A stretch of DNA of 43,355 bases from Bacteroidota bacterium (GTDB taxonomy: Bacteria; Bacteroidota; Bacteroidia; Chitinophagales; Chitinophagaceae): the NCBI GenBank assembly GCA_947476825.1, contig CANJRV010000017.1:1-43355 (forward strand). The letters are read 5' to 3'. A model generated the notes under the pieces. The model worked only from the letters and a program-made list of their open reading frames with translations, did no database searches and was not told the origin of the DNA. Both the position numbers and the translations under genes were made by a program. How positions within the stretch are numbered: the stretch's first letter is position 1; each line of letters opens with the position of its first letter. Of this stretch, positions 13,547 to 42,939 are shown one piece after another.

Positions 13547-14728
13547 GTTTTAATTTTTTTTTGAGTTTAAAATGATTGTTCGAGAAGTAATACGATAGTC
13601 ATGCAAATAACGTTAGCGAATCTAGAAATAAATAGCAGTTTTTTTTATGACAACATTTATTTTTTATAAAATAGAAAGTTGTCTATCGGGTTTGCAACTT
13701 TGGCTGGAGATTTGCAACTTTGGCTGGCGCGGGTTTGCAACCCGTGTCCTCTAATCAAATTGTCTGAACTACATCACTTCGGCTTTGCTCAGCACATGGT
13801 TATTTGATTTGGATGATTAGTATGATTCTATTTTGCAGACTCTTCGATATGTTCCGCAGGACATGTCGAAGTAAAAATAATAGCAGATTTGCAATCTGAT
13901 TACACACGATTAAAAATCGCTTTTTATCTTAAGTTCGAGATGCGCTGCGCTAACATCTCGAATAGCCCAATCAATGAACATAAAAATCCCGTAGGGATGA
14001 CATGATTATAGAAATCATGTTATAAGTCGAAAGCAAAATCCCGTAGGGATGACATGATTTAACGGTCTTCGATATATTCCGAATGCCATGTCGAAGTATT
14101 GATAATGGCAGATTTGCAATCTGCTCGTTTGTGATTAAAAATCGCTTTTTATCTACCATTCGAAATGCGCTGCGCTAACATCTCGAAAAGCCCAATAGCC
14201 CAGTTCAATGAACATAAAAATCCCGTAGGGATGACATGATTGTTGAAATCAAATGATAAGTCGAAAGCAAAATCCCGTAGGGATGATATGATTTAACGGT
14301 CTTCGATATGTTCAGAAAGCCATTTCGAAGTATAGATAATAACAGATTTGCCATCTGCTTGTATGCGATTAGAAATCGCTTTTTATCTACCATTCGAGAT
14401 GCGCTGCGCTAACATCTCGAATAGCCCAGATACATACAAAGAAAATAATTATAGAGTAAAATCTATTCCCCCTTCACTGGCGCGGGTTTGCAACCCGTGA
14501 CCCACACTTCCTAACATCCCCAACAGCCCATTCATTTGCAATCTGCTGGTATGCGATTAAAAATCGCTTTTTATCTACCATTCGAGATGCGCTGCGCTAA
14601 CATCTCGAATAGCCCAAATAAAACAAGAACTCCGTTTGATGCACTGCATTGCGGCAACGATTGCAGTGGAAATCCTTTTTGTCGGCGCAGCCGCAAAAAG
14701 ATTGGAACGGAAAGCGTGCCTGCCGCCC
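13547..14728. repeat. Gene-free array of nested palindromic repeats
   Basis: About 1.2 kb with no credible gene. Left part: TTTGCAACTTTGGCTGG twice at a 20-bp period (13691, 13711), then palindrome CGGGTTTGCAACCCG (13730-13744). Core: units beginning CTTCGATAT at 13842, 14067 and 14301 (spacings 225 and 234 bp), the third truncated near 14428, plus a partial unit at 14533-14616. Each full unit holds palindromes CAGATTTGCAATCTG, CGATTAAAAATCG, TTCGAGATG/CATCTCGAA around CGCTGCGC, and two ATCCCGTAGGGAT hairpins. A second CGGGTTTGCAACCCG lies at 14483-14497. The array ends in copy B of the dispersed GGCGGCA element. The 62-codon minus-strand ORFs within units 1 and 2 are treated as by-products of the repeat. 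Confidence 0.88.
14645..14728 (-). repeat. Dispersed GGCGGCA...TGCCGC palindromic element, copy B
   Basis: On the minus strand it runs from GGGCGGCAGGCACGC to GTTGCCGCAATGCA. Its central hairpin is TTTTTG-CGGC / GCCG-A-CAAAAA, whereas copies A and D carry GCTT/AAGC at that position. The change is compensatory, so pairing is preserved. It closes the right end of the repeat array. Confidence 0.8.
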
Positions 14729-14810
14729 AAATAATTTTCATTTAAAGTGTAGTATCCCTTTTATATCTACTTCTAAAAAGTATCTTTACCCCTTATTTTT
14801 AAAGTTGTAA

Positions 14811-16877
14811 ATGGATAAGAAACTATTACTGAAAGCCTACCGATTGATGATGACTGCCAAGGCAATGGCAAATATTTATGAAGACAACAGAGCAATCTGT
14901 ACCTATGTACATAGCACATCTCGCGGACATGAAGCGATACAATTAGCAACCGCATTTCAATTAAAACCGCAGGATTATGTAAGCCCGTATTATAGAGATG
15001 AGAGTTTAATGTTGGGCATGGGATGGCGCCCCTATGAAATGATGTTGCAATTATTAGCCAAAGCCGATGATCCATTTACAGGCGGACGAGAATATTATAA
15101 TCACCCCAATTCAAGACGAGAAAATTTCCCGAAAATAATTCACCAAAGCAGTGCGACTGGTATGCAGGCAATTCCTACAACTGGCATTGCACAAGGCATA
15201 CAGTACATTGAGAAATCCCAAATAAACAAAATTCCAAATTCCAAAGTAAATGTAGAAGCTCCAGTAGTGATTTGTTGTTTTGGCGACGGCAGTGTTACGG
15301 AAGGTGAAGTGAGTGAAGCATTTCAGTTTGCAGCGCTCCGACAATTGCCAATTATTTATTTAGTAGAAGATAATGATTGGGGCATTAGTGTGAGCAGTGA
15401 TGAAGCACGTACCATGAATGCTTATGAATTTATTCAAGGATTTAAAGGCATTGAAAGAATGCAAGTGGATGGTAGTGATTTTGAAAAAAGTTATGCTACC
15501 ATGGAAAATGCCATTCATTATGTCCGTGAAAAAAGAAAACCCATTTTAGTGCATGCTACCGTTCCACTTTTGGGACATCATACGAGTGGAGTTCGCAAGG
15601 AATGGTATAGAACAGAAGAGGATATGGCGAAGCATATCAAAGATGATCCTGCACCAAAACTGAAAAACAAATTAATACAATTAGGCATCAGTGAAACAGA
15701 ACTGAATACGATAGAAGAAGAAGAAAAAATATTGGTTGCTAGTGAATTTGCTGAAGCCGTTAATGCACCAGAGCCTGATGCTACAAGCGTGAGTGCGCAT
15801 GTGTTTGCAGAGACTAGCATCATTGAAGAGCAAGGAGAAAGAACACCTGCCAATGGCGAAAAAGTAGTGATGGTAGACGCTGCCATGCATGCAGTAGAAG
15901 AGTTGATGCGTAAGCACCAAGAGTGTTTATTTTACGGGCAAGATGTTGGTAAAAGATTAGGTGGTGTATTTCGTGAAGCGGCTACGCTTGCCGATAAATT
16001 TGGCGATGATCGAGTATTCAATACTGCTATTCAAGAGGCTTATATTATTGGTAGTACAATAGGCTTAAGTGCCGTTGGATTAAAGCCATTTGTAGAGGTA
16101 CAATTTGCAGATTATATATACCCTGGCTTCAATCAATTGGTTACCGAAATTTCTAAATCTTGTTATTTAAGTTGTGGCAAATTTCCTGTGAGTATGGTAT
16201 TGCGTGTTCCCATTGGTGCCTATGGTGGTGGCGGTCCTTACCATAGTGGTAGTGTAGAAAGTATACTCGCCAATATCAAAGGAATCAAAGTGGTTTACCC
16301 AAGTAATGCTGCCGATATGAAAGGCTTAATGAAGGCTGCTTATTATGACCCTAATCCGGTTGTCATGCTTGAACATAAAGGATTGTATTGGAGTAAAGTA
16401 CCGGGCACAGAAGATGCAAAAATGATAGAGCCTGCTGAAGATTATATTTTACCATTGGGCAAAGGCATCTCTATTGTACAAGCGAGTGATGAGCAAATAG
16501 AACTTGGCAATAGCATCTGTATTATAACCTATGGCATGGGTGTTTATTGGGCGAAAAATGCAGCGCAAAAATTCCCAGATTCGATAGAAATAATTGATAT
16601 CAGAACCATTTATCCATTGGATGAAGACTTAATTTTTGAGACTGTAAAACGCCATGGAAAATGTTTAGTACTAACGGAAGAACAACTTCGTAATTCCTTT
16701 GCGGAAGCCATGGCATGTAGAATTCAACAAGCTTGTTTTTACCAATTAGATGCTCCAGTAAAAACCTTAGGTGCATTGAATCTTCCAGCAGTACCCATGA
16801 ATAAAATTTTGGAACAAGCGATGTTACCTACTGTCGAAAAAGTGGAACAGGCGATTGAGGCGTTGTTGAGAGATTGA
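14811..16877 (+). CDS. Fused E1 alpha/beta subunit of branched-chain 2-oxoacid (2-oxoisovalerate) dehydrogenase
   Basis: 688 residues: an E1 alpha half (about 1-330) and an E1 beta half (about 355-688) in one chain, a fusion frequent in Bacteroidota. The alpha half has the thiamine-diphosphate motif beginning GDGSVTEGE (158-166) and ending EDNDWGIS, RGHEAIQLA near the N-terminus, and a GHHTSG loop. The beta half has GGVFREA, IQEAYIIGSTIGLSAVGLKP and GAYGGGGPYHSGS. It catalyses oxidative decarboxylation of branched-chain 2-oxoacids as E1 of the E1-E2-E3 complex, feeding branched-chain acyl-CoA for iso-fatty acids and valine/leucine/isoleucine breakdown. E2 and E3 genes are not adjacent. A role as pyruvate or acetoin E1 is less likely but not excluded. 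Confidence 0.92.
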   Translation: MDKKLLLKAYRLMMTAKAMANIYEDNRAICTYVHSTSRGHEAIQLATAFQLKPQDYVSPYYRDESLMLGMGWRPYEMMLQLLAKADDPFTGGREYYNHPNSRRENFPKIIHQSSATGMQAIPTTGIAQGIQYIEKSQINKIPNSKVNVEAPVVICCFGDGSVTEGEVSEAFQFAALRQLPIIYLVEDNDWGISVSSDEARTMNAYEFIQGFKGIERMQVDGSDFEKSYATMENAIHYVREKRKPILVHATVPLLGHHTSGVRKEWYRTEEDMAKHIKDDPAPKLKNKLIQLGISETELNTIEEEEKILVASEFAEAVNAPEPDATSVSAHVFAETSIIEEQGERTPANGEKVVMVDAAMHAVEELMRKHQECLFYGQDVGKRLGGVFREAATLADKFGDDRVFNTAIQEAYIIGSTIGLSAVGLKPFVEVQFADYIYPGFNQLVTEISKSCYLSCGKFPVSMVLRVPIGAYGGGGPYHSGSVESILANIKGIKVVYPSNAADMKGLMKAAYYDPNPVVMLEHKGLYWSKVPGTEDAKMIEPAEDYILPLGKGISIVQASDEQIELGNSICIITYGMGVYWAKNAAQKFPDSIEIIDIRTIYPLDEDLIFETVKRHGKCLVLTEEQLRNSFAEAMACRIQQACFYQLDAPVKTLGALNLPAVPMNKILEQAMLPTVEKVEQAIEALLRD

Positions 16878-16952
16878 TGATGGAAGGAATAAGGGGTAAG
16901 ATGTAAGAAGATGTTGACTATTGCATTTTCTTAAACAACTCACTCTACTCCC

Positions 16953-17606
16953 CTACTTCATCGATTTCGCATCTTCCAAAAATTTGGCAAGACCGATATC
17001 TGTCAAAGGATGTTTGAGCAATCCTAATATACTGTCTAATGGGCAAGTGCATACATCGGCACCAACTTCGGCGCAACGAACAATATGCAATGCATTACGA
17101 ATAGAAGCAGCTAATATTTTAGTTTGAAATCCTTGCAAACGATAGATATGTGCAATTTGTTCTATTAAATTGACACCATCCCAACTACTATCATCAATAC
17201 GACCTATAAACGGCGAAACATAAGTAGCTCCTGCCTTTGCAGCTAGTATAGCTTGTCCAGCAGAAAACACCAAAGTACAATTTGTTTGAATACCATTATC
17301 TGTAAACCACTTAATGGCTTTAATCCCATCTTTTATCATAGGCACTTTCACCACGATATTTTTATCTAATGCTGCTAATGCTTTTCCTTCTGCAATGATA
17401 CCATCCAAATCAGTTGCAATCACCTCCGCACTTACTGGGCCATTCGCAATTTTGCAAATGTCAATATAGTGTTTGATAACCGCTTCAGTACCTTTAATTC
17501 CTTCTTTTGCCATAAGAGAAGGATTGGTAGTAACACCATCTAAAATACCAAGTTCATAAGCTTCTTTAATTTGAGAAAGATTCGCTGTGTCGATGAAAAA
17601 TTGCAT
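16953..17606 (-). CDS. Transaldolase of the fructose-6-phosphate aldolase (FSA/TalC) class
   Basis: 217 residues from the start MQFFIDTANL. The 11 extra in-frame residues upstream (to 17639) would cover the SRP RNA terminator and are not family-like. Motifs are DGVTTNPSL (23-31), the Schiff-base Lys87 in NIVVKVPM, TLVFSAGQAI, YVSPFIGRIDD and ILAASIRN. The short length is that of the single-domain FSA/TalC subfamily, which forms decamers in known members. The reaction is either transaldolase or fructose-6-phosphate aldolase in the pentose phosphate pathway, and the sequence alone does not separate these. The gene starts only 28 bp after the SRP RNA 3' end, so read-through may supply its transcript. 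Confidence 0.93.
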   Translation of the reverse strand: MQFFIDTANLSQIKEAYELGILDGVTTNPSLMAKEGIKGTEAVIKHYIDICKIANGPVSAEVIATDLDGIIAEGKALAALDKNIVVKVPMIKDGIKAIKWFTDNGIQTNCTLVFSAGQAILAAKAGATYVSPFIGRIDDSSWDGVNLIEQIAHIYRLQGFQTKILAASIRNALHIVRCAEVGADVCTCPLDSILGLLKHPLTDIGLAKFLEDAKSMK

Positions 17607-17625
17607 AAAATAATAAGTGAAAGGG

Positions 17626-17727
17626 AAAAAAAATGGCAAGTTACTTATATCGCACCGCTACAACCATATACCTTTGCTATGTTCCCATCCTGGAGGAGTA
17701 ATAGGAGCTGGTCGTATAAGACTTGCC
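17626..17727 (-). ncRNA. ffs: Bacterial small signal recognition particle RNA (4.5S-like)
   Basis: The minus strand from 17727 to 17635 (93 nt) begins GGCAAGTCTTATA and ends TATAAGTAACTTGCC, so the two ends pair (GGCAAGT/ACTTGCC and CTTATA/TATAAG). The apical part reads CCAGG-ATG-GGAA-CAT-AGCA-AAGG. This matches SRP domain IV: the GGAA tetraloop, with CAGG facing AGCA across the internal loops that bind Ffh. A run of eight T follows the 3' stem (17626-17633), acting as terminator. A perfect -7 box TACATTTG sits 4 bp upstream of the first G. It scaffolds Ffh and FtsY for co-translational membrane targeting. No protein ORF explains this stretch. Confidence 0.87.
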
Positions 17728-17731
17728 GCTG

Positions 17732-17739
17732 CAAATGTA
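17732..17739 (-). promoter_or_regulatory. -7 box of the SRP RNA promoter
   Basis: TACATTTG on the minus strand, a perfect fit to the Bacteroidota TAnnTTTG element, ending 4 bp before the predicted first nucleotide of the SRP RNA. No clear -33 TTG was found at the expected distance. Confidence 0.65.
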
Positions 17740-17791
17740 ATAGAATACTTTTAATAATGGCATTTTGATAGAAAAATATTCAGCCACTTTT

Positions 17792-18892
17792 TTAGAACCA
17801 TTTTTTCGTTTTAAAATACAACAATAAAAGTATTGGAAATATGATCATCGCAAGGGTTGCAAGCCAGAAACCATGCTGGTTGTGGATGTACGGAATCCGT
17901 TCAAAGTTCATTCCAAAAATACCACCTATCACCGTAGCAGGCGAAAGTAAAGTAGTAACGATGGCTAAAAATTTCATGATCTCGTTCAGCTTGACATTTA
18001 CTTTATTGAAATATAAATCTCGAATATTGGTAATCATATCACGATAGTTTTCAGACAAATCATTCACTTGCAAAATATGATCATAAATATCTTTAAAATA
18101 CTTTTTAGTCGACTCTTCAAAATGTATATTCTCTGATCTAATAATACTTTGAATTAAGTCGCGAACAGGAAAAGTATTTCGCTTAAAATAAATGAGTTCC
18201 TTTCGCAAATTATTGATACGATTCATGGTAAAATCATCCGCCAAATTATTGGTAATTTCTTCTTCTAATTTTTCTATTTGCACACTCAATTTTTCCAACA
18301 CAATAAAATAATGATCTACTATTCTATCCAATAAAGCATACAATAAATAGTCAACCTTTCTTGTTCTGATTTTAGTGTTTTCATGCAACATTCTTTCCCT
18401 TATAGGTGTAAATAAATCACGTGTTGCTTCATCTTGAAATGAAAATAAATAATTCTCACCCAATACAAAACTTACTTGCTCACCTTCAATGGTATTGCTT
18501 AATTCATTGAAGAAAAGCATTTGCAAAACACAAGTAAAATGATCATCAATTTCATCCGTTTTTGGTCTTTGGTAATCATTCAAAATATCTTCAATGATTA
18601 AAGGATCTAATCCTATTGCACCGCCAATTTCTTCAACGGTTTGTTTGTTGATGACATCTACATTCAGCCAATATTTTTTATCCTTCTCCAAAAATGCATG
18701 ACCTATTTGATTACTTTTAATCGTAGTCTTTGTGTTACATGCTGTATCATTGTAAGTAAATAAAGTAAGCACAGACTCGCCTTTACATGCAGTAACAATA
18801 GGCACTGTAGGGTTATTTTGCAATACCTTTTTGGTTTGCAATAATTCTAAAGGATTTAAATATTGCAGATATTTATTGTTGGATGGTTTCAT
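17792..18892 (-). CDS. corA: CorA-family magnesium/divalent cation channel
   Basis: 366 residues. A large cytoplasmic N-terminal alpha/beta funnel with a long helical stretch (about 195-300) is followed by two C-terminal membrane helices (about 305-325 and 340-360). The selectivity motif GMN (327-329) is followed by the short periplasmic loop, and the basic tail KTKKWF matches the family. It forms pentamers in known members and imports Mg2+ (or Co2+/Ni2+). Its ATG overlaps the TGA of the upstream MntR-like regulator (ATGA), so the two are translationally coupled, suggesting metal-linked control. Confidence 0.95.
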   Translation of the reverse strand: MKPSNNKYLQYLNPLELLQTKKVLQNNPTVPIVTACKGESVLTLFTYNDTACNTKTTIKSNQIGHAFLEKDKKYWLNVDVINKQTVEEIGGAIGLDPLIIEDILNDYQRPKTDEIDDHFTCVLQMLFFNELSNTIEGEQVSFVLGENYLFSFQDEATRDLFTPIRERMLHENTKIRTRKVDYLLYALLDRIVDHYFIVLEKLSVQIEKLEEEITNNLADDFTMNRINNLRKELIYFKRNTFPVRDLIQSIIRSENIHFEESTKKYFKDIYDHILQVNDLSENYRDMITNIRDLYFNKVNVKLNEIMKFLAIVTTLLSPATVIGGIFGMNFERIPYIHNQHGFWLATLAMIIFPILLLLYFKTKKWF

Positions 18893-19554
18893 ACTTCATT
18901 TAATAATAAATTATGGGAAAATTTTTCGGACACCATGATTTCCTTTTTATTATCCACTAAAATCAGAAAAGAATTATCAAATTCCATTCGCTTAATCACT
19001 TGTATTTTTGAGGCTAAGGTAATTTTCAATTGCATCAAAAATTGCAAAAATTCAGAAGATGAATCTTTCACCGACGACACCAAATAATGCGTGCCTATAG
19101 CAGCATCGAACAAGGGAATTGTTTTGACAGTTGTATAATCGCCTTTACTATTTGGTATTGGATCTCCATGCGGATCCATTGTAGGATAACCCAAAAACGT
19201 ATCTAATTTCTGAATTAATTTGACGGATTGTATATGCTCTAATTGTTCTGCAATTTCATGCACTTCATCCCAAGTGAATCCCAATTTTTCATACAAAAAA
19301 ACTTCCCATAAACGATGCTTTCTAATGGTCAGCAATGCACTCGATTTCCCTTTTGCCGACAATTTCACTTTTCCATATCGTTCATATAAAATGATGTTCT
19401 TATCCCTGAGTTTTTTCAACATAGATGTCACGGTAGCAGGCTTTATACCTAAGTCTTCCGCAATCTGATTAGTGGAAGTTACCTCCGCATCCGAGCCCAT
19501 AGCCAAATGATAAATGGACTTGATATAATTTTCTTCTGTATAACTTAATACCAT
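18889..19554 (-). CDS. MntR/DtxR-family metal-dependent transcriptional regulator
   Basis: 221 residues. An N-terminal winged helix (about 1-70; STNQIAEDLGIKPATVTSMLKKL is the recognition region) is followed by the metal-binding dimerisation domain, with His80 (RKHRLWE), Glu103, Glu106 and His107 (AEQLEH). The residue corresponding to DtxR Cys102 is Glu103, as in Mn2+-responsive MntR, which favours manganese sensing. A C-terminal SH3/FeoA-like domain follows (about 145-221). It represses or activates metal transport genes when loaded with metal. Its stop overlaps the corA start by 4 bp. No operator palindrome was identified with confidence. Confidence 0.92.
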   Translation of the reverse strand: MVLSYTEENYIKSIYHLAMGSDAEVTSTNQIAEDLGIKPATVTSMLKKLRDKNIILYERYGKVKLSAKGKSSALLTIRKHRLWEVFLYEKLGFTWDEVHEIAEQLEHIQSVKLIQKLDTFLGYPTMDPHGDPIPNSKGDYTTVKTIPLFDAAIGTHYLVSSVKDSSSEFLQFLMQLKITLASKIQVIKRMEFDNSFLILVDNKKEIMVSEKFSHNLLLNEV

Positions 19555-19604
19555 ATTAGCTCAGTGAAAAATATTGCTATACTAAAAATGTAATGAAAAT
19601 TATT

Positions 19605-19647
19605 GGGGCGGCATACACACTTTCCGCTGCAATCGTTGCCGCAATAC
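19605..19647 (+). repeat. Dispersed GGCGGCA...TGCCGC element, internally deleted copy C
   Basis: It retains both ends (GGGCGGCATACACACTTTCC and GTTGCCGCAATACA) but lacks the central CTTTTTG hairpin. The junction falls at TTTCC, which occurs on both sides of the missing segment in full copies, pointing to a microhomology deletion. It lies in the otherwise empty 19555-19842 gap before recX. Confidence 0.7.
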
Positions 19648-19803
19648 AGTCACCAAAATAGCCTATGTCTCTCATTGCATGTTTAGTTTATTTAAAATAT
19701 AAACGAATGTAATTCAATTTATCGTATAGTAATTGGAAAGACCAAGTTGAATTCTGCTAAGCGAATCCTAATAAAATATCCTTACAAATTCTATCCTGTA
19801 TAT

Positions 19804-19811
19804 TATTTTTG
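19804..19811 (+). promoter_or_regulatory. -7 box for the recX operon
   Basis: TATTTTTG fits TAnnTTTG and lies 31 bp upstream of the ATG at 19843. It supports that start over the longer in-frame ATG at 19747, which would place the promoter inside the coding region. Confidence 0.5.
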
Positions 19812-19842
19812 TAAGCCATATATTATCCTCGAAAAATTTACG

Positions 19843-20304
19843 ATGTCTTCACTTGAAAAAATAAAATCCTATTGTGCTTATCAAGAGCGAAGCCATCAAG
19901 AAGTTCGATATAAATTATTGGAACTTGGCGTTTACGGATTGGATTTAGAAAATCATATCACAGTGCTTATTGAAGAAAATTTTTTGAATGAAGAACGTTA
20001 TGCTTGTAGTTTAGTTAGGGGTAAATTTTATTATAAGCATTGGGGGCGACATAAAATAAAACAAAGTTTGCAACAACAACAAGTTTCTGATTATTGCATA
20101 CAGAAAGGGATGAAAGAAATAGAGGAAGCAGATTATGTGCGCACCATAAAAACCTTGGCAGAAAAAAAATGGCTGACTTTACGAACAGAAAAAAATAAAT
20201 TTACAAAGATGACGAAGCTCAAAAATTATCTTTTGCAAAAAGGTTATGAGTATAGTTATATCAACGATTTTTTACACACCAAACAATCACATGCAGATGA
20301 ATAA
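19843..20304 (+). CDS. recX: RecX-family regulatory protein
   Basis: 153 residues from MSSLEKIKSYC. The upstream in-frame extension to 19747 has no family features. It shows the RecX three-helix repeat pattern: CAYQERSHQEVRYKLLELG (first repeat), an ENFLNEERYACSLVRGKFYYKHWGRHKIKQSL core with the typical LDDxRFAxxYVRxK-like motif, and a degenerate C-terminal repeat (KMTKLKNYLLQKGYEYSYI). RecX binds RecA and modulates its filaments and recombinase activity. The recA gene is not nearby. It overlaps the downstream amidase gene by 8 bp. Confidence 0.88.
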   Translation: MSSLEKIKSYCAYQERSHQEVRYKLLELGVYGLDLENHITVLIEENFLNEERYACSLVRGKFYYKHWGRHKIKQSLQQQQVSDYCIQKGMKEIEEADYVRTIKTLAEKKWLTLRTEKNKFTKMTKLKNYLLQKGYEYSYINDFLHTKQSHADE

Positions 20305-21079: not shown

Positions 21080-21235
21080 TTGGTGCTTTAAAACTTGATG
21101 TTGGATTTCTTTAAATCCGATAAGTTGTAGTCACTGTCTCGTACAACAGGTCACTTAGACCCAAAACAAAATTTACAAAAAGTTGATAGGAAACCCCAAG
21201 TAATTGGGAATTTGTAGAAGAAGAAACAAATTCAA

Positions 21236-22102: not shown

Positions 22103-22254
22103 AGTAGAATGGTGCTTAAAATAGATGTGTAATATTACAATAACTTTTTTATAATTCATAACGAAAAAATAAATAGTTCAAAATAGATTTATAGATTTTT
22201 ATCTCCTTGAATATATAGGTTACTAGAGTTCATTCTAATCTATTCTACTATAAA

Positions 22255-35383: not shown

Positions 35384-35400
35384 TCGCACAAAAAATTATC

Positions 35401-36507
35401 ATGGCAAAAGCAAAAACGACCAAAGCAAATAAAGAATTCTTCAGTCAATCTTCGATGGATTTTATCAAAACCTACTTAGACAATGCATCTCCTACTGGCT
35501 TTGAAACCAGCGGACAAAAGATATGGCTAGATTATATAAAACCCTTTATTGATACGCATTTGGTAGATCCTTATGGAACGGTAGTCGGTATAATTAATCC
35601 TGATGCACCTTTCAAAGTGGTGATAGAAGCACATGCTGATGAAATATCTTGGTTTGTAAAATACATTACCTCGGACGGCTTTATTCATGTGTGCCGAAAC
35701 GGTGGTAGCGATCATCAAATTGCTCCTTCTAAACGCGTGAATATTCATACAAAAAAAGGAATTGTTCGTGGTGTATTTGGCTGGCCAGCAATCCATGTAC
35801 GAACAGCACAAAATGAAAAAAAACCTGAGATAGAAACTATATGGATTGATGTGAATTGTAAAAACAAAAAAGAAGTAGAAGCTTTAGGCATTGAGATTGG
35901 TAGTGTTTGTACTTTCACTGAAGGATTTGAAGAAGGCAATCACGGCTACTGGATTGCACGCGCACATGACAATCGCATGGGTGGCATCATGATTGCGGAA
36001 GTGGCTCGTCTGCTGAAAGAAAATAAGAAGAAATTACCTTTCGGATTATACATCGTAAATTCTGTACAAGAAGAAGTAGGATTGAATGGCGCAACCATGA
36101 TTGCACACAGACTCAAACCAAATGTCGCCATCTGCACCGATGTAACACATGATACTGCCACACCCATGATGAGCAAGCCTGCACAAGGTGAAGCTACTTG
36201 CGGACAAGGACCTGTAATATGCATAGGACCAGCAGTACATAATATCTTGCGCGAACTGATAGTTGATACTGCTAAGAAAAATAAAATCAATCATCAACTG
36301 CAAGCGGTGAGTCGTGTTACTGGCACCGACACGGATGCATTTGCATTCAGCAACGGTGGTGTACCAAGCGCATTGATTTCTCTACCTCTTCGTTACATGC
36401 ATACTACTGTTGAAACGGTTCATAAAACGGATGTAGAACATTGTATCAAATTGATGTATGAAGTGTTGTTGAAGTTGACACCGAAGACTAATTTTCAGTA
36501 CATGTAG
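35401..36507 (+). CDS. M42-family aminopeptidase
   Basis: 368 residues from MAKAKTTKANKEFF. Metal and catalytic residues of the M42 di-zinc family are His78 and Asp80 (EAHADEISW), bridging Asp190 (AHDNRMGG), catalytic Glu224 with Glu225 (VQEEVGLNGA), Asp247 (CTDVTHD) and a late His in RYMHTTVETVH. The PDZ-like insert domain (about 85-175) is present. Known relatives are tetrahedral dodecameric aminopeptidases or deblocking enzymes, some misnamed endoglucanase M. Probably a cytoplasmic peptide-recycling enzyme, since no signal peptide is seen. The Lys-rich N-terminus is short and unremarkable. Confidence 0.93.
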   Translation: MAKAKTTKANKEFFSQSSMDFIKTYLDNASPTGFETSGQKIWLDYIKPFIDTHLVDPYGTVVGIINPDAPFKVVIEAHADEISWFVKYITSDGFIHVCRNGGSDHQIAPSKRVNIHTKKGIVRGVFGWPAIHVRTAQNEKKPEIETIWIDVNCKNKKEVEALGIEIGSVCTFTEGFEEGNHGYWIARAHDNRMGGIMIAEVARLLKENKKKLPFGLYIVNSVQEEVGLNGATMIAHRLKPNVAICTDVTHDTATPMMSKPAQGEATCGQGPVICIGPAVHNILRELIVDTAKKNKINHQLQAVSRVTGTDTDAFAFSNGGVPSALISLPLRYMHTTVETVHKTDVEHCIKLMYEVLLKLTPKTNFQYM

Positions 36508-36650
36508 CAGGGAGTAGTTAGTATTTAGTAGTTAGTAGTGAGATGGCAGTAGTTTAGGATTCGGACTTTGGAATTTGAATTTTGGGATTTGGTTTTAGGG
36601 CTTTGGAATTTGGGATTTGATTTTTGGAATTTTATAATTTGGGATTTAAT
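36508..36650. repeat. Low-complexity degenerate repeats
   Basis: First a TAGTAGTTAGTA-type stretch (36515-36540), then imperfect repeats of TTTGGAATTTGGGATTTG (about 36570-36655), which run into the N-terminal codons of the next ORF. No gene content of its own was seen. Confidence 0.7.
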
Positions 36651-37052
36651 TTGGAACAAATATTCAACATAGGTGATACAAAAACATTTTCAAAAGTAGT
36701 GCAAGAACAAGACATCGCTGCTTTTGAAAGTGGTACTGTTCATGATGTGTATGCCACATTTTCTATAGCGCGTGATGCGGAATGGAGTGGACGACTTTTT
36801 GTATTGGACATGAAAGAAGAGGATGAAGAAGGTATCGGCACTAGCATTACTGTGGATCATGTTAGTCCTGCTTTTATTGGAGATACAATCGTATATACAG
36901 CGGAATTTGTAGAGATTAATGAACGCCGAGAAATTATCACTACCTACAAAGCTTATTGTGGTGAAAGACTAATTGCGAAAGGAGTACAAGGGCAAAAGAT
37001 TTTAAAGAAAATAAAAATCGATGCCTTGTTTGAGGGGTTGAAAAAGGGATAG
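36651..37052 (+). CDS. Hotdog-fold thioesterase-like protein
   Basis: 133 residues from TTG at 36651 (EQIFNIGDTKTFSKVV). The longer reading from TTG 36624 starts inside the low-complexity repeat, so the shorter start is preferred, and the true start is uncertain. HDVYATFSIARDAEWSGRLFVLDM is the helix and strand of FlK/MaoC-like hotdog proteins, and HVSPAFIGDTIVYTAEFVEINERREIITTYKAYCGERLIAKGVQGQKIL is the typical second strand set. It could hydrolyse an acyl-CoA. The catalytic residues cannot be assigned with confidence. It is convergent with the TPR protein gene, with 23 bp between their ends. Confidence 0.75.
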   Translation: MEQIFNIGDTKTFSKVVQEQDIAAFESGTVHDVYATFSIARDAEWSGRLFVLDMKEEDEEGIGTSITVDHVSPAFIGDTIVYTAEFVEINERREIITTYKAYCGERLIAKGVQGQKILKKIKIDALFEGLKKG

Positions 37053-37075
37053 TAAAAATAGAACACATCTCTATT

Positions 37076-39115
37076 TTACCGCCCCATCTCCTTATCATCA
37101 TTCCCGATTTTAAACAAATAGAAACATAAATTTTTACCCGCATCATCATTTGTAGAATAAGTAAATTCATTTGGTGGCACAACAAATTCGTTATGGTATT
37201 TTACAGAATATTGAATAATTGGCAAACGGGCTTTTACTTTAAATTGAACATCCACATCCAAGGCATCTTCACTTGCATCGGTCACCCACTGTATAGAGCA
37301 AGATTTTAAGGTTTGCATAATTGCTTGCTGCGTTTCATTATTTTCATTGCTATGCAAACGCATGGGAACAATAAGCGTTGAGAATGGAATCAACTGCGGA
37401 TACATTTTATAACAACTTATTTTTTCCGCATTGGTTACGGATGTTTTATCCAAATGATTTTTACAAATCAGTAAGTCTGTGGCCACTCTTGCCAAAAATA
37501 ATTTTTCATAATCTATATCCAATTTTGGATCCTGCATTATACTTTCCAAATAGGTTTTAGCAATGGCATACTTCTCTTTCTTCATGTACAATTTTGCGAT
37601 AAATAATTTTTCATAACGCTTCACATTTTCTCGTTTTTCCGCCTTGAGTTCTTCTTGAAATTTGTCCAAAAAATAATTCACACTAAAGCCATCAATCAAA
37701 TACCAAATCTCATCAAAGGAAACTGTACTCTCTGTCGAAAATAAATTATAAATCACTCGATCCCGCTCTGGATTAGTTGCGAATTGGTTGATGATTAAAA
37801 ATTGTAAACTATATTTCTCCAGCGTTAATTGCGCCATCTTTTTTAAGGCTGCAGGCGAATACCACCAATCCTTTTGTAAAAATTGTATCGATTCTATTTC
37901 TCTAATTTTTATCAATAAATTCATCAAAGAAATACTAAAATCATAATGACTTTGTCCTAAGGTTGTACCAATATGAATTTCCTTAAACTGCTCTGCCCGC
38001 AAGGCATAACGTTTGGCAATGTCTATTTGTCCATCGTATAATAAATCACGCGTAAGTGCAATATTATACCAACCAAATCCAGGTGTAGATCCACTGAGCT
38101 TAATCAAATTTTTCAACTCTTGAATGCCAGCTTTTGTATTCCCTTTATACGCATTTATGATCGACAAATAATAATAAGATTCCTTCATTCTTTTATCGCC
38201 AGGATCTTGCATTTTCGAAATATCATAGTAATGTTCGGCTTCTCTAAAATTCGCTTGAATAGCACAAAAGGTAGCATAATTATTTTCCGGAAAATATTTT
38301 GTAGACTTTAATTTATCATAATAATAAGCAGCCGATTCTATTTTTAATTGGTAGCTATATAGTATCGATTTGTAATGCCAAACACTCGGCATTTTTTCGG
38401 CAAGATAATCCAAATTAAAAATGGTTTTATTGACTTGGGCATCTCGCTTTATTTTTTGCGAGCAGCTATCTAGCAGCGTATTTGCGTATTGCTCATTTTC
38501 TGCAATGGTGTTTTTCAGAAACGGATATTTCGCGCTTGTATAAAATCGATTTCGATGTACAGTCCAAGCTAAATAATTATAGGTGTCCATGTACAATTCA
38601 TCTTGCAAATCATTTTTTTTACATTGTTGCAATAGCCCCCAAACCTTACTCGGATTTTCCATATTACTATAACATTGCATCAATGCAAATGCCATATAAT
38701 CCCAGTCACGATGATATTTCATGATGGTAACATAGGTTTGTACATCGGTAGTTCTTGTTTGTAATTGGGCATAAAAATCCTTCTGCAATAATTGCATGGC
38801 TTTCTCTAATTGTTGTGCTGCCACATCATATCCTCGATAGTCGGCGGCATGATCAAATTTGTAGGTGCCTTCGAGCATCCAACCAACATAATAGGTGCTA
38901 TCAATTCTTTTAAATTCTCGACCTTGCGGCAATGCTTCTTTGCTGGTGTAGGTTATCCCAACTCGCTTGGCATCAATTTCAAAACGGCGCGATTCTTTAG
39001 ACTGTGCAAAACCAAATATTGGCAAACAAATAAAAATGCATATCAGCCACAAACCTATATCTCTATTAGATTTCTTTTGATGAATCGGTATGAATGGATA
39101 ATGTTTTTTCTTCAT
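37076..39115 (-). CDS. Exported TPR-like helical-repeat protein
   Basis: 679 residues. The basic N-terminus is followed by a signal or anchor helix (about 20-37, ending FGFAQ). The rest is mostly helical with scattered TPR-like pairs, for example PENNYATFCAIQANFREAEHYYDISKMQDPGDKRMKESYYYLSIINAYKGNTKAGIQELKNLIKLSG. The C-terminal 100 residues look beta-rich (VDVQFKVKARLPIIQYSVKYHNEF). No enzymatic motif and no T9SS tail, so it is likely periplasmic. Function not recognised. The gene stands alone on the minus strand between the hotdog gene and the yebC repeat region. Confidence 0.8.
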   Translation of the reverse strand: MKKKHYPFIPIHQKKSNRDIGLWLICIFICLPIFGFAQSKESRRFEIDAKRVGITYTSKEALPQGREFKRIDSTYYVGWMLEGTYKFDHAADYRGYDVAAQQLEKAMQLLQKDFYAQLQTRTTDVQTYVTIMKYHRDWDYMAFALMQCYSNMENPSKVWGLLQQCKKNDLQDELYMDTYNYLAWTVHRNRFYTSAKYPFLKNTIAENEQYANTLLDSCSQKIKRDAQVNKTIFNLDYLAEKMPSVWHYKSILYSYQLKIESAAYYYDKLKSTKYFPENNYATFCAIQANFREAEHYYDISKMQDPGDKRMKESYYYLSIINAYKGNTKAGIQELKNLIKLSGSTPGFGWYNIALTRDLLYDGQIDIAKRYALRAEQFKEIHIGTTLGQSHYDFSISLMNLLIKIREIESIQFLQKDWWYSPAALKKMAQLTLEKYSLQFLIINQFATNPERDRVIYNLFSTESTVSFDEIWYLIDGFSVNYFLDKFQEELKAEKRENVKRYEKLFIAKLYMKKEKYAIAKTYLESIMQDPKLDIDYEKLFLARVATDLLICKNHLDKTSVTNAEKISCYKMYPQLIPFSTLIVPMRLHSNENNETQQAIMQTLKSCSIQWVTDASEDALDVDVQFKVKARLPIIQYSVKYHNEFVVPPNEFTYSTNDDAGKNLCFYLFKIGNDDKEMGR

Positions 39116-39244
39116 TAGGATAGCTTGTAATCAAGCGGCTACTATCGATTCAAAAGTAAGGAATATATTGTGAATGCAAGAAGGCAAGATAATTTTCCCT
39201 TTGTAAAATATTTGACGAACCAAAATAAATGGTGTGAGTTATCT

Positions 39245-39331
39245 TGGCGGCACTCACGCTATTCGTTCCAATCTTTTTGCTTCAAAGCAAGCAAAAAGGA
39301 TTTCCACTACTATCGTTGCCGCAATACAAAG
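39245..39331 (+). repeat. Dispersed GGCGGCA...TGCCGC palindromic element, copy D
   Basis: From TTGGCGGCACTCACGC to GTTGCCGCAATACA, with the central stem CTTTTTGCTT / AAGCAAAAAG intact. It lies in the 39116-39466 gap, where no gene was found; apparent codons of a long ORF reading into yebC come from this repeat. Confidence 0.82.
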
Positions 39332-39466
39332 CATCTAATAATCTTCTGTTTCATTACCTGTTTAGTTTCGCCAAATATTTTTACTATTTGCATGTTGAAA
39401 AAACCAGTAAAAATAGAATCATATTTTTTACTTAAATTCGCCTCCTTAAATAAAAGGATTCTAATC

Positions 39467-40177
39467 ATGGGAAGAATATTTGAAGTACGTAAGTCGGCAA
39501 TGTTTGCACGATGGGATAAGATGGCAAAGAACTTTACACGTATCGGTAAAGAAATTGCAATTGCTGTAAAAGCAGGTGGACCAGACCCAGATACTAACTC
39601 TGCCTTGCGCCGTTGTTACGCCAATGCGAAATCTGTGAACATGCCTAAAGACCGTGTAGAAGCTGCTATCAAACGTGCTACAGGTAAGGATTTGGTGGAT
39701 TATGAAGAATTGGTGTATGAAGGTTTTGGACCACATGGTGTTGCTATTTTAGTGGAATCAGCAACCGACAATGGCACTAGAACTGTTGCTAATATTCGCG
39801 CGGCATTCAACAAAGGTGGAGGCACCATGGGCAATAGTGGATCTGTTGCATTTTTATTTACACGTATGGGTGAATTCAAATTAAAAAATGAAGGCATCGA
39901 TATGGATGAATTAGAATTGGAAGGCATTGATTTTGGGATGGAAGAAATTGGTGAAGATGCGGATGGCAATATTATCATACGTACTGGCTTCAACGATTTT
40001 GGTAATATGAGTGATTTTTTGGAAAAGAAAAATATAACGCCAATTGAATCTACTTTAACCCGTATTCCGATGACCACCGTAGAACTCAATGACGAGCAAT
40101 CAAAAGAAGTATTGGAATTGGTGGATAGATTAGAACAAGATGATGATGTGCAAAAAGTATATCATAATTTGAAGTAA
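39467..40177 (+). CDS. YebC/PmpR-family regulator of translation or transcription
   Basis: 236 residues from MGRIFEVRKSAMFARWDKMAK, the usual start. The in-frame ORF extends 99 codons upstream, but that part is the copy D repeat and has no protein features. Motifs are RIGKEIAIAVKAGGPDPDTNSALRRCYANAKSVNMPKDRVEAAIKRATG, YEGFGPHGVAILVESATDNGTRTVANIRAAFNKGGGTMGNSGSVAFLF and a C-terminal acidic domain. Some members were described as transcription regulators. More recent work on family members links them to relief of ribosome stalling at proline stretches. Cytoplasmic, single gene. Confidence 0.95.
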   Translation: MGRIFEVRKSAMFARWDKMAKNFTRIGKEIAIAVKAGGPDPDTNSALRRCYANAKSVNMPKDRVEAAIKRATGKDLVDYEELVYEGFGPHGVAILVESATDNGTRTVANIRAAFNKGGGTMGNSGSVAFLFTRMGEFKLKNEGIDMDELELEGIDFGMEEIGEDADGNIIIRTGFNDFGNMSDFLEKKNITPIESTLTRIPMTTVELNDEQSKEVLELVDRLEQDDDVQKVYHNLK

Positions 40178-40191
40178 GGATGCAGGGGCAA

Positions 40192-40220
40192 ACCTATAAG
40201 GTTTCAAAAACTTTATAGGT
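40192..40220. repeat. ACCTATAAGGTTT hairpin
   Basis: ACCTATAAGGTTT (40192-40204), loop CAA, AAACTTTATAGGT (40208-40220): 13 bp with one mismatch. No T-run follows, yet it lies between convergent genes ending at 40177 and 40231, so it could be a weak terminator or a palindromic repeat. Confidence 0.55.
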
Positions 40221-40230
40221 GTATGGATCC

Positions 40231-41217
40231 TCATTCCCCAAAGTACTTTCCTTTCGCTAAATAATTGCTGACATAATCTCTTACCCCTTCTTCTATAATT
40301 TGAAAAGGTTTGATATAACCAGCATCCATTAATTTGGTCATATTGGCTTCTGTAAAATATTGATACTTATCCCGAATGTCCAATGGTGTATCTATAAATT
40401 CAATATTCTCTTTGACGCCCATCGCAGAAAAAATAGCAGATGCCAATGCTAAAAATGTAGCTGCTTTACCACTACCTAAATTGTATAAACCATTGTTCGG
40501 TTTATTGTGCAATAACCAATAGGTCACTTCCAACACATCCTTGACATAAATAAAATCACGCATTTGTCCACCATCTGCATAATCAGGATGATGCGAACGA
40601 AATAGTTTTAAACTGCCATTGTTTAATATTTGATGATAGGCGTGAAATACAACCGATGCCATTCTTTGTTTATGAAATTCATTGGGTCCATACACATTGA
40701 AAAATTTTAATCCATACCAATGTGGAGGCGCTTGATTGGTTTGCGCAATCGCCCATTTATCAAATTCATTTTTTGAAACCCCATACGGATTTAAAGGTTG
40801 TAATTGTTGGATGACAGAATGATTATCTTCATATCCAAACTCGCCATTACCGTAAGTTGCAGCCGATGAGGCATATATAAATGGAATCTGATTTTTGGTA
40901 CAATACTGCCAATATATTTTGGATGACTCTACATTTAATTGCTCATGAATTTGATAATCCATTTCAGTTGTATCTGTTCGTGCACCAAAATGTATGACTG
41001 CATCTATTTGTGCATTGGCTTGCAAAAAGGATCCAATTTCACTTCTTTCAATTTTAACGAGACATTGTATTTGCTGCTGATTATTTTTCTTGTCTTCTCT
41101 CGAAAAATCATCCACCAGATATAAATTCGTAAAGCCTTTTTCATTTAAAAAACGAGCCATGCAACTGGCAATAAATCCTGCTGCTCCTGTAATAATGATA
41201 TGAGATGATGTATTCAA
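40231..41217 (-). CDS. hldD: ADP-L-glycero-D-manno-heptose-6-epimerase
   Basis: 328 residues from TTG at 41217 (then NTSSHIIITGAAGFIA). The in-frame ATG at 41295 lies inside the transporter gene, and no nearer ATG precedes the dinucleotide-binding motif. Extended SDR fold: ITGAAGFIASCMA (9-21; last Gly of GxxGxxG is Ala here), HFGARTDTTE, YASSAATYG and the catalytic YGVSK (Tyr145, Lys149). FNVYGPNEFHKQRMASVVFHAYHQI and DGGQMRDFIYVKDV are characteristic of HldD. It epimerises ADP-heptose for LPS core synthesis in the cytoplasm. It begins 23 bp after the transporter stop, probably one operon. Confidence 0.92.
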   Translation of the reverse strand: MNTSSHIIITGAAGFIASCMARFLNEKGFTNLYLVDDFSREDKKNNQQQIQCLVKIERSEIGSFLQANAQIDAVIHFGARTDTTEMDYQIHEQLNVESSKIYWQYCTKNQIPFIYASSAATYGNGEFGYEDNHSVIQQLQPLNPYGVSKNEFDKWAIAQTNQAPPHWYGLKFFNVYGPNEFHKQRMASVVFHAYHQILNNGSLKLFRSHHPDYADGGQMRDFIYVKDVLEVTYWLLHNKPNNGLYNLGSGKAATFLALASAIFSAMGVKENIEFIDTPLDIRDKYQYFTEANMTKLMDAGYIKPFQIIEEGVRDYVSNYLAKGKYFGE

Positions 41218-41240
41218 AAAAATATTTTTAAATAAAATAA

Positions 41241-42509
41241 TTACATAATAATTCCTGCAATGGTTGCTGATAAATAAGATGCTAAAGTACCGCAAAAAAG
41301 GGCTTTTAATCCAAGCTTTGCTAAGTCTGCTCTACGCTCTGGTGCCAACGCGCCTATGCCGCCTATTTGCATACCTACCGACGAAAAATTAGCGAAACCA
41401 CAAATGGCAAAACTAACAATCAATAGACCTTTTTCAGAAAGTACTGGCAATGCATCCTTTACTGCAGCTGGGTTTGCGGTCAAGTGCGAAAATGCTACAA
41501 ATTCATTCACCACCAATTTTTGTCCCAGTAAAGTAGATACATTATTTAAGTCTTGATAAGGCACGCCCATTGCCCAGGCAAATGGATAAAAGAGTTTCCC
41601 GAATATCCAATCTAAGGTGAATGCAAAATCAAAATGACAAAGCACACCAACTTTTAATAATAAGAAATTGATGAAGGCTATTAAGCCAATAAATCCAATC
41701 AACATGGCAATGACATTCACGGAAATTTTCATACCATCAGCAGCACCATGACTAATCGCATCAATCACATTACTATATGGCGACTTCACATCCAGTTTTA
41801 CATTGCCCATGGTTTCACTTTCTTCTGTTTCTGGAAATACAATTTTAGAAATAACCAATGCACCTGGCGCAGCCATCATACTTGCTGCTAATAAATATTC
41901 TGCCTTTGCACCGAAGCTAACATACACTACCAAAATACCACCAGCAATACAAGCCAAACTTCCAGTCATACTTGCCAATAATTCACTCTTGGTCATTCCT
42001 TTCAAATAAGGTCGTATCATCACTTGCGCTTCCACTTGTCCTACGAATGCACTGGCAACATTACTCAATGCTTCTGCACCACTCACACGCATCACAAAAT
42101 TCATCGCTTTAGCAATGATGCTGACAATAAACTGCATCACTCTGAAATGATATAGAATAGCCACTATCACACAAACTAAAATAATAGTGGACAATACACT
42201 GAAACCAAAAATAAAAGTGGCAGGTGTTCGGTATGCAACACTCCCACCTTGAAAATTATCAACCATTATACCGCCATACACAAAGCCAGCGCCTTCTTTA
42301 GCGAAAGCTTCTATATGCGTCATTTGTTTGCCCAACCATTGAAAAATATTTTTTACGGCTTCCACTTTCAAGATAAGCAATGCCAATATCATTTGTAAAG
42401 TAAGACCGCTCAATACCAAACGAATATTAATTTTTCTTTTATTATTGGATACTAAAAATGCTAGCCCAAGTATGAGCACAAGCCCGATTAATCCGTGAAA
42501 TCTTTCCAT
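41241..42509 (-). CDS. Concentrative nucleoside transporter (NupC/CNT family)
   Basis: 422 residues, many membrane helices. Family motifs are GGIMVDNFQGGSVAY-like N-terminal gate, VSGAEALSNVASAFVGQVEAQVMIRPYL (core with the GQxEA motif), GSLACIAGGILVVYVSFG, and the C-terminal LLGQKLVVNEFVAF and ICGFANFSSVGMQIGGIGALAPERRADLA. CNT proteins import nucleosides with Na+ or H+. The pair with hldD is probably incidental co-transcription. Helix 1 begins at residue 5. The start ATG is 3 bp into an otherwise clear upstream region (42510-42600). Confidence 0.95.
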   Translation of the reverse strand: MERFHGLIGLVLILGLAFLVSNNKRKINIRLVLSGLTLQMILALLILKVEAVKNIFQWLGKQMTHIEAFAKEGAGFVYGGIMVDNFQGGSVAYRTPATFIFGFSVLSTIILVCVIVAILYHFRVMQFIVSIIAKAMNFVMRVSGAEALSNVASAFVGQVEAQVMIRPYLKGMTKSELLASMTGSLACIAGGILVVYVSFGAKAEYLLAASMMAAPGALVISKIVFPETEESETMGNVKLDVKSPYSNVIDAISHGAADGMKISVNVIAMLIGFIGLIAFINFLLLKVGVLCHFDFAFTLDWIFGKLFYPFAWAMGVPYQDLNNVSTLLGQKLVVNEFVAFSHLTANPAAVKDALPVLSEKGLLIVSFAICGFANFSSVGMQIGGIGALAPERRADLAKLGLKALFCGTLASYLSATIAGIIM

Positions 42510-42939
42510 GTCAAAAATTAGATTGTATGATAAAATATTATTTGCAAAGCCTACAAATATAGTAGCTCAATGTAAGTGATTTATTTTTATTGTACAATAA
42601 TGTGGAAGAAGAATCATGACACGCTGCGGTTAATGACTGAATCACGGATGTCATGGATGAAAGTATGAGACGGATTCGGGAATTAAATTCTTATTCTGTT
42701 CGGAATTTGCAAATCTCAAACAGGTATCTCGAACAGATTCTGCTAATTAAAACTCCCCTATCTCACCAAAATAAAATCGCCTTTCGCAATTTTCTGACTA
42801 ATAATGCCTTTGTCATTGCAGGTGTAAAGCATGATATAATGGTAGGTATCTGGATCTTCATCTTCGCCACTGTTCGGGATTTGCAATCCCGAACCGCTAT
42901 CGGAGGATTTTTAATCCTCATATCACAAGCTTCCAAAAT
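42510..42939. repeat. RAYT-associated palindromes (REP/BIME-like), no gene
   Basis: Left: CATGACA (42615-42621) with TGTCATG (42649-42655). Then a degenerate pair, GAATTAAATTC (42680-42690) and a TTTGCAA-type palindrome (42698-42721). After about 150 nt comes a well-kept pair in mirror order: arms GTTCGGGATT / AATCCCGAAC (42872-42894) and GAGGATT / AATCCTC (42903-42919). The two pairs face each other like a BIME. A 42-codon minus-strand reading frame (42758-42886) lies between them. The 120-codon plus-strand ORF here is not supported. Confidence 0.75.

Follow-up and report, generated by a model that had tools for sequence, protein, structure and literature searches.

Introduction

The biochemistry of repetitive extragenic palindromic (REP) sequences and of the REP-associated tyrosine transposases (RAYTs) rests, in the papers considered here, on groups 2 and 3 of Proteobacteria, and for the group of the Bacteroidota the published text offers only "atypical secondary structures" recognized by eye. 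Its main text describes the RAYTs of subclass 2.6 of Bacteroidetes as being flanked by atypical hairpins without GT[AG]G, which were found by manual inspection (Quentin 2018, PMC6006769). Here we analyzed a stretch of 43,355 nucleotides from a Bacteroidota bacterium of the family Chitinophagaceae (contig CANJRV010000017.1 of assembly GCA_947476825.1; the whole stretch is called the window in the following), which contains palindromes with the apex TTTGCAA in an array and beside a fragment of a RAYT gene. These palindromes are very probably non-autonomous REPs of tyrosine (Y1, HuH) RAYT transposases that resemble subclass 2.6 of Bacteroidota (group 5 of Bertels). Enrichment of the palindromes and their linkage to RAYT genes support an earlier note on this DNA, which had proposed REP sequences tied to a tyrosine transposase.

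The REPs and bacterial interspersed mosaic elements (BIMEs) of Escherichia coli with their transposase TnpAREP (group 2) share with the elements described here an oriented imperfect hairpin, a fixed 5' tag, a conserved irregularity of the stem, and inverted pairs, and CT is reported as the cutting dinucleotide in the text of PMC8266576. In contrast, GTAG is missing here, one G.T wobble stands in place of the AA/GC bulge, and the 25-nt type has a 10-bp stem and a 3-nt loop. The GTAG and CGTC families (PMC3733652, PMC2817692) are also small tagged hairpins, which form dimers and are mostly extragenic (Di Nocera 2013, PMC3733652, in the text available), but neither tag occurs in the conserved hairpin foot or in type A described below, and the CGTC repeats of Bacteroidetes are reported there without a transposase, whereas the REPs studied here have one. 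The IS200/IS605 elements have a Y1 fold and hairpins at both ends in common with our system, but the RAYTs of the own genome stay below the cut-off of the IS200 model (20-29 bits versus 55). REPINs have an inverted REP pair as repeat unit (Bertels and Rainey 2011), as does our type B; however, each half of type B is itself a two-hairpin unit, and its arms are unequal.

The earlier note had also supposed that such elements may not have been described. Atypical hairpins beside RAYTs of subclass 2.6 are stated in PMC6006769, and to this extent they were known; the main text of that paper (supplementary Table S1 aside) gives no hairpin consensus for subclass 2.6 and contains neither "mismatch" nor "wobble". 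The open-licence literature yielded no other description of these elements, and a search of it with the strings of six REPs gave as sole match one string in a fish primer paper. Compared with the main text on subclass 2.6, the foot with its G.T wobble, the triloop beginning with T, the covariation, the two-hairpin units, and the distribution of types by RAYT clade are worked out here.

Results and Discussion

Three REP types in the window

The palindromes of the earlier note were all recovered: CGGG-TTTGCAA-CCCG at 13730 and 14483, CAGA-TTTGCAA-TCTG at 13884 and 14109, its decayed form CAGA-TTTGCCA-TCTG at 14343, and the palindrome at 42874, the full arm of which comprises 8 bp (GTTCGGGA/TCCCGAAC) instead of the 5 bp noted before. 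The window contains five hairpins that combine the core TTTGCAA with arms of at least 4, compared to an expectation of 0.22 and a maximum of 2 in 300 Markov-1 simulations. In the own genome (G000; 3.30 Mb in 184 contigs, the window being contig C17) the pattern GGTTTGCAACC has 39 matches versus 2 for the reversed pattern, and GATTTGCAATC has 31 versus 0. A lack of enrichment, by which the note would have been refuted, was thus not observed: the counts exceed the simulations in the window and the reversed controls in the genome.

The note had interpreted the palindromes as one family with a constant core and co-varying arms. When the hairpins are read together with their flanks, and because the flanks of RAYT genes separate them, they can be assigned by their sequences to three oriented REP types (A, B, and C). 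The concept of a single family was therefore rejected: at the same place beside the RAYT, other species have other apices, and TTTGCAA is a recurrent apex, one among several, and not the signature of a family. The co-varying arms, on the other hand, were borne out (see below). Type A is a single hairpin, GCTGGCGC-GGG-TTTGCAA-CCC-GTG, which includes a G.T wobble. The half-unit of type B consists of a first hairpin H1 (CTTCGATATG..CATGTCGAAG), the linker TATAGATAAT, and a second hairpin H2 (GGCAGA-TTTGCAA-TCTGC); about 8 bp after H2 follow an inverted H2', the linker, and H1', resulting in a REPIN-like inverted pair. Type C is composed of H1 (CT-GTTCGGGA-TTTGCAA-TCCCGAAC), the linker CGCTATCG, and H2 (GAGGATT-TTT-AATCCTC). 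The anatomy of type B was derived by eye in comparison with the RAYT flank of locus L014. The E values in the following list refer to model R1, described in the next section.

13687..13723, plus strand: two partial tandem type A copies (TTTGCAACTTTGGCTGG, period 20) abutting the first REP (repeat D5)
13724..13748, plus strand: type A REP, CT-GG-CGC-GGG-TTTGCAA-CCC-GTG-TC, with G.T wobble (R1, E 3.3e-8)
13842..13962, no strand assigned: type B inverted pair, unit 1: H1, linker, H2 (CAGA-TTTGCAA-TCTG), 8 bp, H2' (CGATT-AAA-AATCG), linker, H1' (repeat D1)
14067..14187, no strand assigned: type B inverted pair, unit 2 (repeat search and sequence)
14301..14421, no strand assigned: type B inverted pair, unit 3, core decayed to TTTGCCA (repeat search and sequence)
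14477..14501, plus strand: type A REP, copy 2, oriented like copy 1 (R1, E 5.4e-9)
14533..14609, no strand assigned: type B, unit 4, 5'-truncated (repeat search and sequence)
42870..42919, plus strand: type C two-hairpin REP, H2 side facing the RAYT (sequence and stem search)

A second palindrome 8 bp downstream, which had been postulated for each setting, does not exist in all of them, since no stem lies within 25 bp of either CGGG copy. Such a partner is present after 13884 and after the full arm at 42874, and at a distance of 7 bp after 14343. A stem of at least 5 begins 10 bp beyond the decayed copy at 14535, and the partner at 14109, GTGATT-AAA-AATCGC, is imperfect (by eye), the scripted search having returned only a different hairpin at 11 bp. 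In the array, half of the inverted neighbor serves as the partner palindrome; at 42.9 kb, the partner and the first hairpin belong to one unit, as its H2 and H1. Therefore, the proposed paired organization stands for the array, as an inverted REP pair, and for 42.9 kb, as one two-hairpin unit, and it is absent from type A; the inverted orientation of two REPs that characterizes REPINs and BIMEs was found (by eye) for type B, and not for types A and C. The outer AGATAA/TTATCT of the array might have formed a three-way junction, but this was rejected: the inverted linkers of two B units explain these sequences, and the folding of the whole unit (see below) does not surpass that of shuffles.

The type C stretch 42868-42922 folds with -15.1 kcal/mol (z -6.1), and for the type A copy at 13724 the top strand folds better than the bottom strand (-7.9 versus -5.8 kcal/mol); the whole type B unit folds no better than shuffled sequences (z -1.0 and -1.6). 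Screening of the window and the stretches L018-L057 listed 53 hairpins with arms of at least 3, part of which are due to chance. The strict type A pattern has 22 copies across 13 contigs of G000, and model R1 has 36 matches there (E up to 0.1). REP copies are mainly intergenic, 33 of 42 being not wholly contained in an open reading frame (ORF) of at least 100 amino acids, while such ORFs make up 75% of the fetched stretches. With Rfam at gathering scores no family matching the hairpins was obtained.

The location mostly outside of ORFs would also be expected if the palindromes were intrinsic terminators or RNA hairpins between genes that had been spread by duplication. The array indeed has 8 terminator-like sites versus 0.8 in shuffles, including the type B H2' hairpins followed by TTTTTATC and the ATCCCTACGGGAT repeats, and type B may act as a terminator in addition to its role as a REP. 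As a general explanation this is very unlikely, because neither of the type A copies nor the region 42.6-43.4 kb has a terminator-like site, the foot has a direction and points towards the RAYT gene from both of its ends, the arms covary, and one REP copy lies in frame within a gene.

A conserved foot beside RAYT genes of Bacteroidota

The comparison across the phylum is based on 80 named loci of Bacteroidota, the best 80 of 474 confirmed. Nine of these 80 loci have TTTGCAA hairpins (arms of at least 4) no further than 600 bp from the RAYT, with 16 per 93.8 kb near to and 8 per 273.8 kb far from the genes. The frame of type A recurs with other arms in Mariniphaga (AGA/TCT), Petrimonas (GAA/TTC), Breznakibacter (GGA/TCC), and a metagenome-assembled genome of Bacteroidales (TGA/TCA). 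When the upstream flanks of 106 RAYT loci were compared with their reversed downstream flanks, 50 loci were above the 99% level of swapped flanks and 29 were above every swapped pair. The commonest feature of the flanks is the foot CT-NN-CGC ... GTG-N'N' with a G.T wobble, which is present in about half of the related loci.

The foot is strongly oriented. Up to 300 bp from the 80 RAYTs, 97 copies face inwards (upstream at 38 loci, downstream at 46, on both sides at 34) and 8 face outwards, and 6 occurrences were counted in 213 kb further away. Control motifs near RAYTs are rare: of the two with a plain pair in place of G.T, CGC/GCG was found once and CAC/GTG not at all, the stems GCG/CGC, CCG/CGG, and GCC/GGC one, zero, and two times, and the tags TC, GA, and AG not at all. 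Without imposing the foot, stems with one irregular pair contained G.T in 157 of 208 readings near RAYTs versus 36 of 199 far from them; these are readings and not hairpins, because a single hairpin may allow readings that differ in loop size. In 148 of the 157 the G.T stands in the context C-G-C/G-T-G, preceded by a C-rich run and (G)CT. Neither GT[AG]G nor CGTC appears in this foot logo (C-rich, then (G)CT); in the position of the GT[AG]G of canonical REPs type A reads GGCT or CACT, and the combination of a CGTC tag with the lack of a transposase was not found.

The arms covary. Among 58 instances of CT-NN-CGC-NNN-TTTGCAA-NNN-GTG-NN (N free), many of them from the own genus, the inner triplets are exactly complementary in 53 and the outer pairs can pair in 48. 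In addition, 35 distinct 25-nt REPs were picked near RAYTs of the 80 loci solely by CT..CGC.{13}GTG.., so that the invariance of CT, CGC, and GTG is meaningless, being fixed by the extraction. In this set, 96.0% of the cells are paired versus 70.9% after shuffling, changes on both sides occur in 83 cells versus 23.6, the covariation score is 0.648 versus 0.180, and double changes are found at 7 of 7 variable pairs. The number of pairs with a double change and the number of further pair types are not above shuffles (218 and 390 of 500 shuffles, respectively, were as high). The first base of the loop, which was not imposed, is T in all 35. Model R1 was built from these 35 REPs, none of which is from the own genome, and in the window its matches at E up to 10 are 14477-14501 and 13724-13748 and no others. 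The defined foot and apex allow an automatic detection of REPs of the Bacteroidota group, R1 being applicable across families.

A coding origin was rejected for four single TCG/CGA copies in distant genomes, which have no open stretch of more than 339 bp over them; the copy at L199 has an open stretch of 1,089 bp across it and possibly lies within a gene.

That the core TTGCAA is common to types A, B, and C could also mean that the palindromes are operators, i.e., sites of a transcription factor or a nucleoid protein that reads this core. We regard this as extremely improbable, since other species have other apices at the same place beside the RAYT, and an operator would not have the asymmetry seen in the CT tag and the G.T wobble.

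RAYT genes and their resemblance to subclass 2.6

RAYT genes are bordered at their ends by their own REP type in inward orientation; other copies are dispersed and mostly intergenic. In the own genome, PF01797 matches at 8 places, 2 of which have the NQxEHH motif that denotes subclass 1.2 according to the text of PMC6006769, and 6 are of the RAYT kind. The A2 profile for RAYTs is not restricted to the subclass; it gives 11 matches for G000, with pieces on C134, C170, C36, and C138 outside of the examined set. NCBIfam model NF047646 was run on five own RAYT proteins (L012-L015 and the remnant in the window; L011 and L016 are outside of this set), and L012-L015 passed its cut-off of 80 with 88-118 bits.

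The three REP types adjoin different RAYTs, A by L012, B near L014, and C by L011 and the remnant in the window. Type A, inverted, borders L012 at both ends. Both ends of L013 bear a long-looped hairpin, CTGGCGCAGG..CCTGTGCC, and those of L014 (by eye) the unit GCTGTTCGACATG..CATGTCGAAC-linker-GGTTC..; about 450 bp upstream of L014 there is also a copy of type B. A two-hairpin unit that lacks TTTGCAA stands at both ends of L015 and of L016. Three type C units, one of them with TTTACAA, lie upstream of L011, the other end of which is cut off.

The fragment in the window, which the earlier note had recognized, is a real RAYT remnant with its stop codon at 42940-42942 and a profile match to 43212; on the 5' side it is replaced by the IS1595-family end.

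42940..43212, minus strand: RAYT remnant, C-terminal part with the catalytic-Tyr motif YIHLNP, HuH part missing (A2 profile, E 1.6e-23)
43230..43355, minus strand: end of an IS1595-family transposase interrupting the RAYT, to the contig end (NF033547, PF12762)

Taken alone, the remnant is below the cut-off of NF047646 (39.9 bits versus 80). On contig C178, an IS1595 zinc-ribbon piece comes after L011, and contigs C178 and C17 may hold the two halves of one RAYT gene. Each of the three IS1595 matches is short and does not reach its cut-off; that in the window attains 24.6 bits with NF033547 (cut-off 75) and 19.9 bits with PF12762 (cut-off 27) over 21-23 amino acids. The last 36 codons of another gene (EDEDPDTYHYIMLYTCNDKGIISQKIAKGDFILVR) flank the possibly split RAYT, at 42758-42868 (minus strand) in the window and at 26-1099 of L011; the whole end of this gene is in C178 and an end piece in the window.

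The structure closest to the RAYTs, by profile as well as by fold, is that of the E. coli RAYT bound to REP (4er8). The predicted structure of L012 (pLDDT 91, pTM 0.87) has 4er8 as best match, followed by IS200/IS605 transposases, and H60, H62, and Y145 are invariant across 27 aligned sequences. As judged by their motifs, the own RAYTs resemble subclass 2.6 of Bacteroidota, for which the text of PMC6006769 gives NH[LIV]H and YIH[QN]NP about 82 amino acids apart and an SS extension. Both the HuH and the Y motif were found with relaxed patterns in 77 of 79 named proteins (SHxH in 14 of the 77; YIHNNP in 30 and YIHQNP in 8), the median distance between them is 83 versus 82 in that paper, and YSS is present in 77 of the 79. 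The genes are also flanked by hairpins without GT[AG]G that have copies elsewhere, as stated for subclass 2.6.

Association with RAYTs and two-hairpin layouts

The association with RAYTs, the absence of which would also have refuted the note, was found for the TTTGCAA hairpins and the inward foot near the genes, in the co-occurrence in genomes, and in the clustering on a RAYT tree. In a set of 59 genomes of relatives, R1 matches (E up to 0.1) occur in 23, the own included, and RAYT-profile matches in 42. A RAYT is present in 22 of the 23 REP-positive genomes versus 20 of the 36 others (p 0.0009 by Fisher's test, and 0.008 if the own genus is excluded), in a test that ignores phylogeny and genome size and uses a profile that is not subclass-specific. 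Strict type A was found in 6 of the 59 genomes, each of which belongs to the own genus and has a RAYT match; in a draw from the phylum that includes the own genome, it was found in 7 of 296. The patterns of types B and C are confined among the 59 to the own genome and its sister G001.

The RAYT tree has 108 rows and was computed with a quick method; 52 of its 104 inner branches are open. The REP types are clustered on it, with 35 changes versus 54.7 after shuffling and 0 of 200 shuffles as low. The apex TTTGYAA requires 4 changes for 8 rows versus 7.8, ATTGYAT and AATCCTT are weakly clustered, and GTCCGC is not clustered. L012 is found in a branch of mostly foot-type rows and L014-L016 in a branch of 21 rows, 18 of them without the foot, neither branch being starred; this placement fits separate origins of the TTTGCAA apex. 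Seven RAYT matches have internal stops or a shifted frame (L065, L094, L096, L113, L121, L130, and L134) and are probably decaying copies; such rows were read with X, and the out-of-frame row L096 was left out of the tree.

Two neighboring hairpins, often with matching apices, characterize about a quarter of the examined loci: the layout was found at 33 of 114 loci, some of the pairs being tandem single REPs or due to chance, and at 15 of them on both sides. The linkers have 7-12 nt in 39 of 63 cases, with a mode of 9. At 21 stricter loci, not all of which are independent, the similarity of the H1 apex to its own H2 apex is 0.587 versus 0.407 after shuffling, and 0 of 20,000 shuffles were as high.

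Differences between sister genomes

The sister genome G001 is about 90-100% identical in matching flanks. It also contains the array of the window, on two contigs that end in it, while in G003, G005, G008, G009, and G013 the long match starts only at or near the gene to the right of the array. On contig C18 of G000 there is an extra 69-bp unit, which consists of one type A REP and the following stretch, begins at the foot of the REP, and is bounded at GGCT (L020 versus L241). On C74, the second type A REP lies in frame in a gene, where it encodes DAGAGLQPVPH, and G001 encodes PTTTP (L031, about 905-938, versus L246); G001 has 14 other bases there, a shorter and unrelated stretch, so that the site is no clean insertion. 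At L032, G001 carries a diverged REP and no empty site, and a stretch of about 1 kb that differs between L022 and contig C5 of G001 is not bounded exactly by REPs.

Alternatively, the copies might nowadays differ only by slippage and recombination, with immobile elements and a historical linkage to RAYTs. The 69-bp tandem unit and the 230-bp units of the array are in accord with this, as is the RAYT of the window, which is broken by the IS1595 end. This reading, which is not exclusive with that of REPs of RAYT transposases, is rather doubtful in view of the 22 strict type A copies on 13 contigs and of the solitary in-frame REP that is present in one sister and absent from the other, although its site is no clean insertion.

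Two observations concern the movement of larger units. For a length of 745 bp, the RAYT units on C2 and C93 are 83% alike; the match given by BLAST extends about 9 bp past the outer hairpins on either side, or 37 bp on one of the sides if the alignment is looser. At the L012 locus, a stretch of 915 bp in G000, which comprises the RAYT and four REP-like copies (one degenerate), corresponds to 63 bp in G001. Both would be expected if RAYT and hairpins were still an insertion sequence (IS)-like unit (TIRtron) that moves as a whole and whose ends gave rise to solitary REPs. This scenario is compatible with the REP interpretation and we consider it unlikely: only two paralogous units were seen, both of them old, and the left side of the site in G001 rests on a 91-bp stretch of 84-85% identity that occurs twice there; the difference may be a gain or a loss.

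Several points weigh against the interpretation as REPs of subclass-2.6-like RAYTs. G001 has no close orthologue of L012 (its best RAYT match has 66%) and yet 17 strict type A copies, which means that REPs can outlive their RAYT or use another one. The strict foot is absent in 50 of 109 RAYT rows, including L014-L016 of the own genome, and thus it is not universal; types B and C also lack the CGC/GTG block. The W motif WQ, which Table 1 of PMC6006769 lists for subclass 2.6, the text of that paper calling the subclass not conserved in this region, is replaced by WR, WI, WE, and WT in L012-L015 and by WR in the consensus of 27. For this reason, and because the comparison is one of motifs, we speak of resemblance to the subclass. 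The RAYT-negative genome G038 has 2 REP matches, and the named limits of the co-occurrence test belong here as well. Part of type B looks terminator-like, the tandem differences could come from slippage or homologous recombination, and the cutting and movement of REPs by the RAYT are what we infer by analogy.

Proposed mechanism

The hairpins, their covariation, the foot, the linkage to RAYTs, and the sister-genome differences are observed; the strand, the cutting site, and the mobilization by the RAYT would follow from the analogy with E. coli, where the single-stranded REP is cut at CT and a conserved mismatch of the stem is needed (text of PMC8266576). By this analogy, the REP strand, presumably the top strand, would fold into a hairpin when it is single-stranded, e.g., on the lagging strand. 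The RAYT would then read the foot (in the branch of type A CT, followed by CGC/GTG with the G.T wobble) and its own apex, cut beside CT, and rejoin the ends, and thereby the element would spread. Cutting and rejoining might generate single REPs, tandem repeats, and inverted pairs, and the arms would be free to vary provided that pairing is kept.

A more far-reaching proposal is put forward tentatively, and we would not call it probable. RAYTs similar to subclass 2.6 might read their own superfamily of non-GTAG REPs, in which a CT that can be cut precedes two covarying pairs, a fixed block (C-G/G.T/C-G), a stem with covariation, and a triloop beginning with T. One branch might use two hairpins with matching apices, the whole unit might move like an IS, and the REPs might still be inserting, even in frame. 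The defined foot and apex provide a testable substrate for RAYTs of Bacteroidota, and irregularities of the stem become comparable between RAYT groups.

Further features of the window

Palindromes of the sequence ATCCCGTAGGGAT are repeated between the type B units (13985-14295) and are terminator-like on the minus strand. Flavo-1 RNA (RF01705) matches at 11786-11862 (minus strand), 14649-14725 (plus strand), and 39248-39324 (minus strand), one of the matches being located directly to the right of the REP array. With dozens of similar places in G001 and G002, the Flavo-1 stretch behaves as a dispersed repeat. The Bacteroidales small signal recognition particle (SRP) RNA (RF04183) is found at 17630-17735 on the minus strand.

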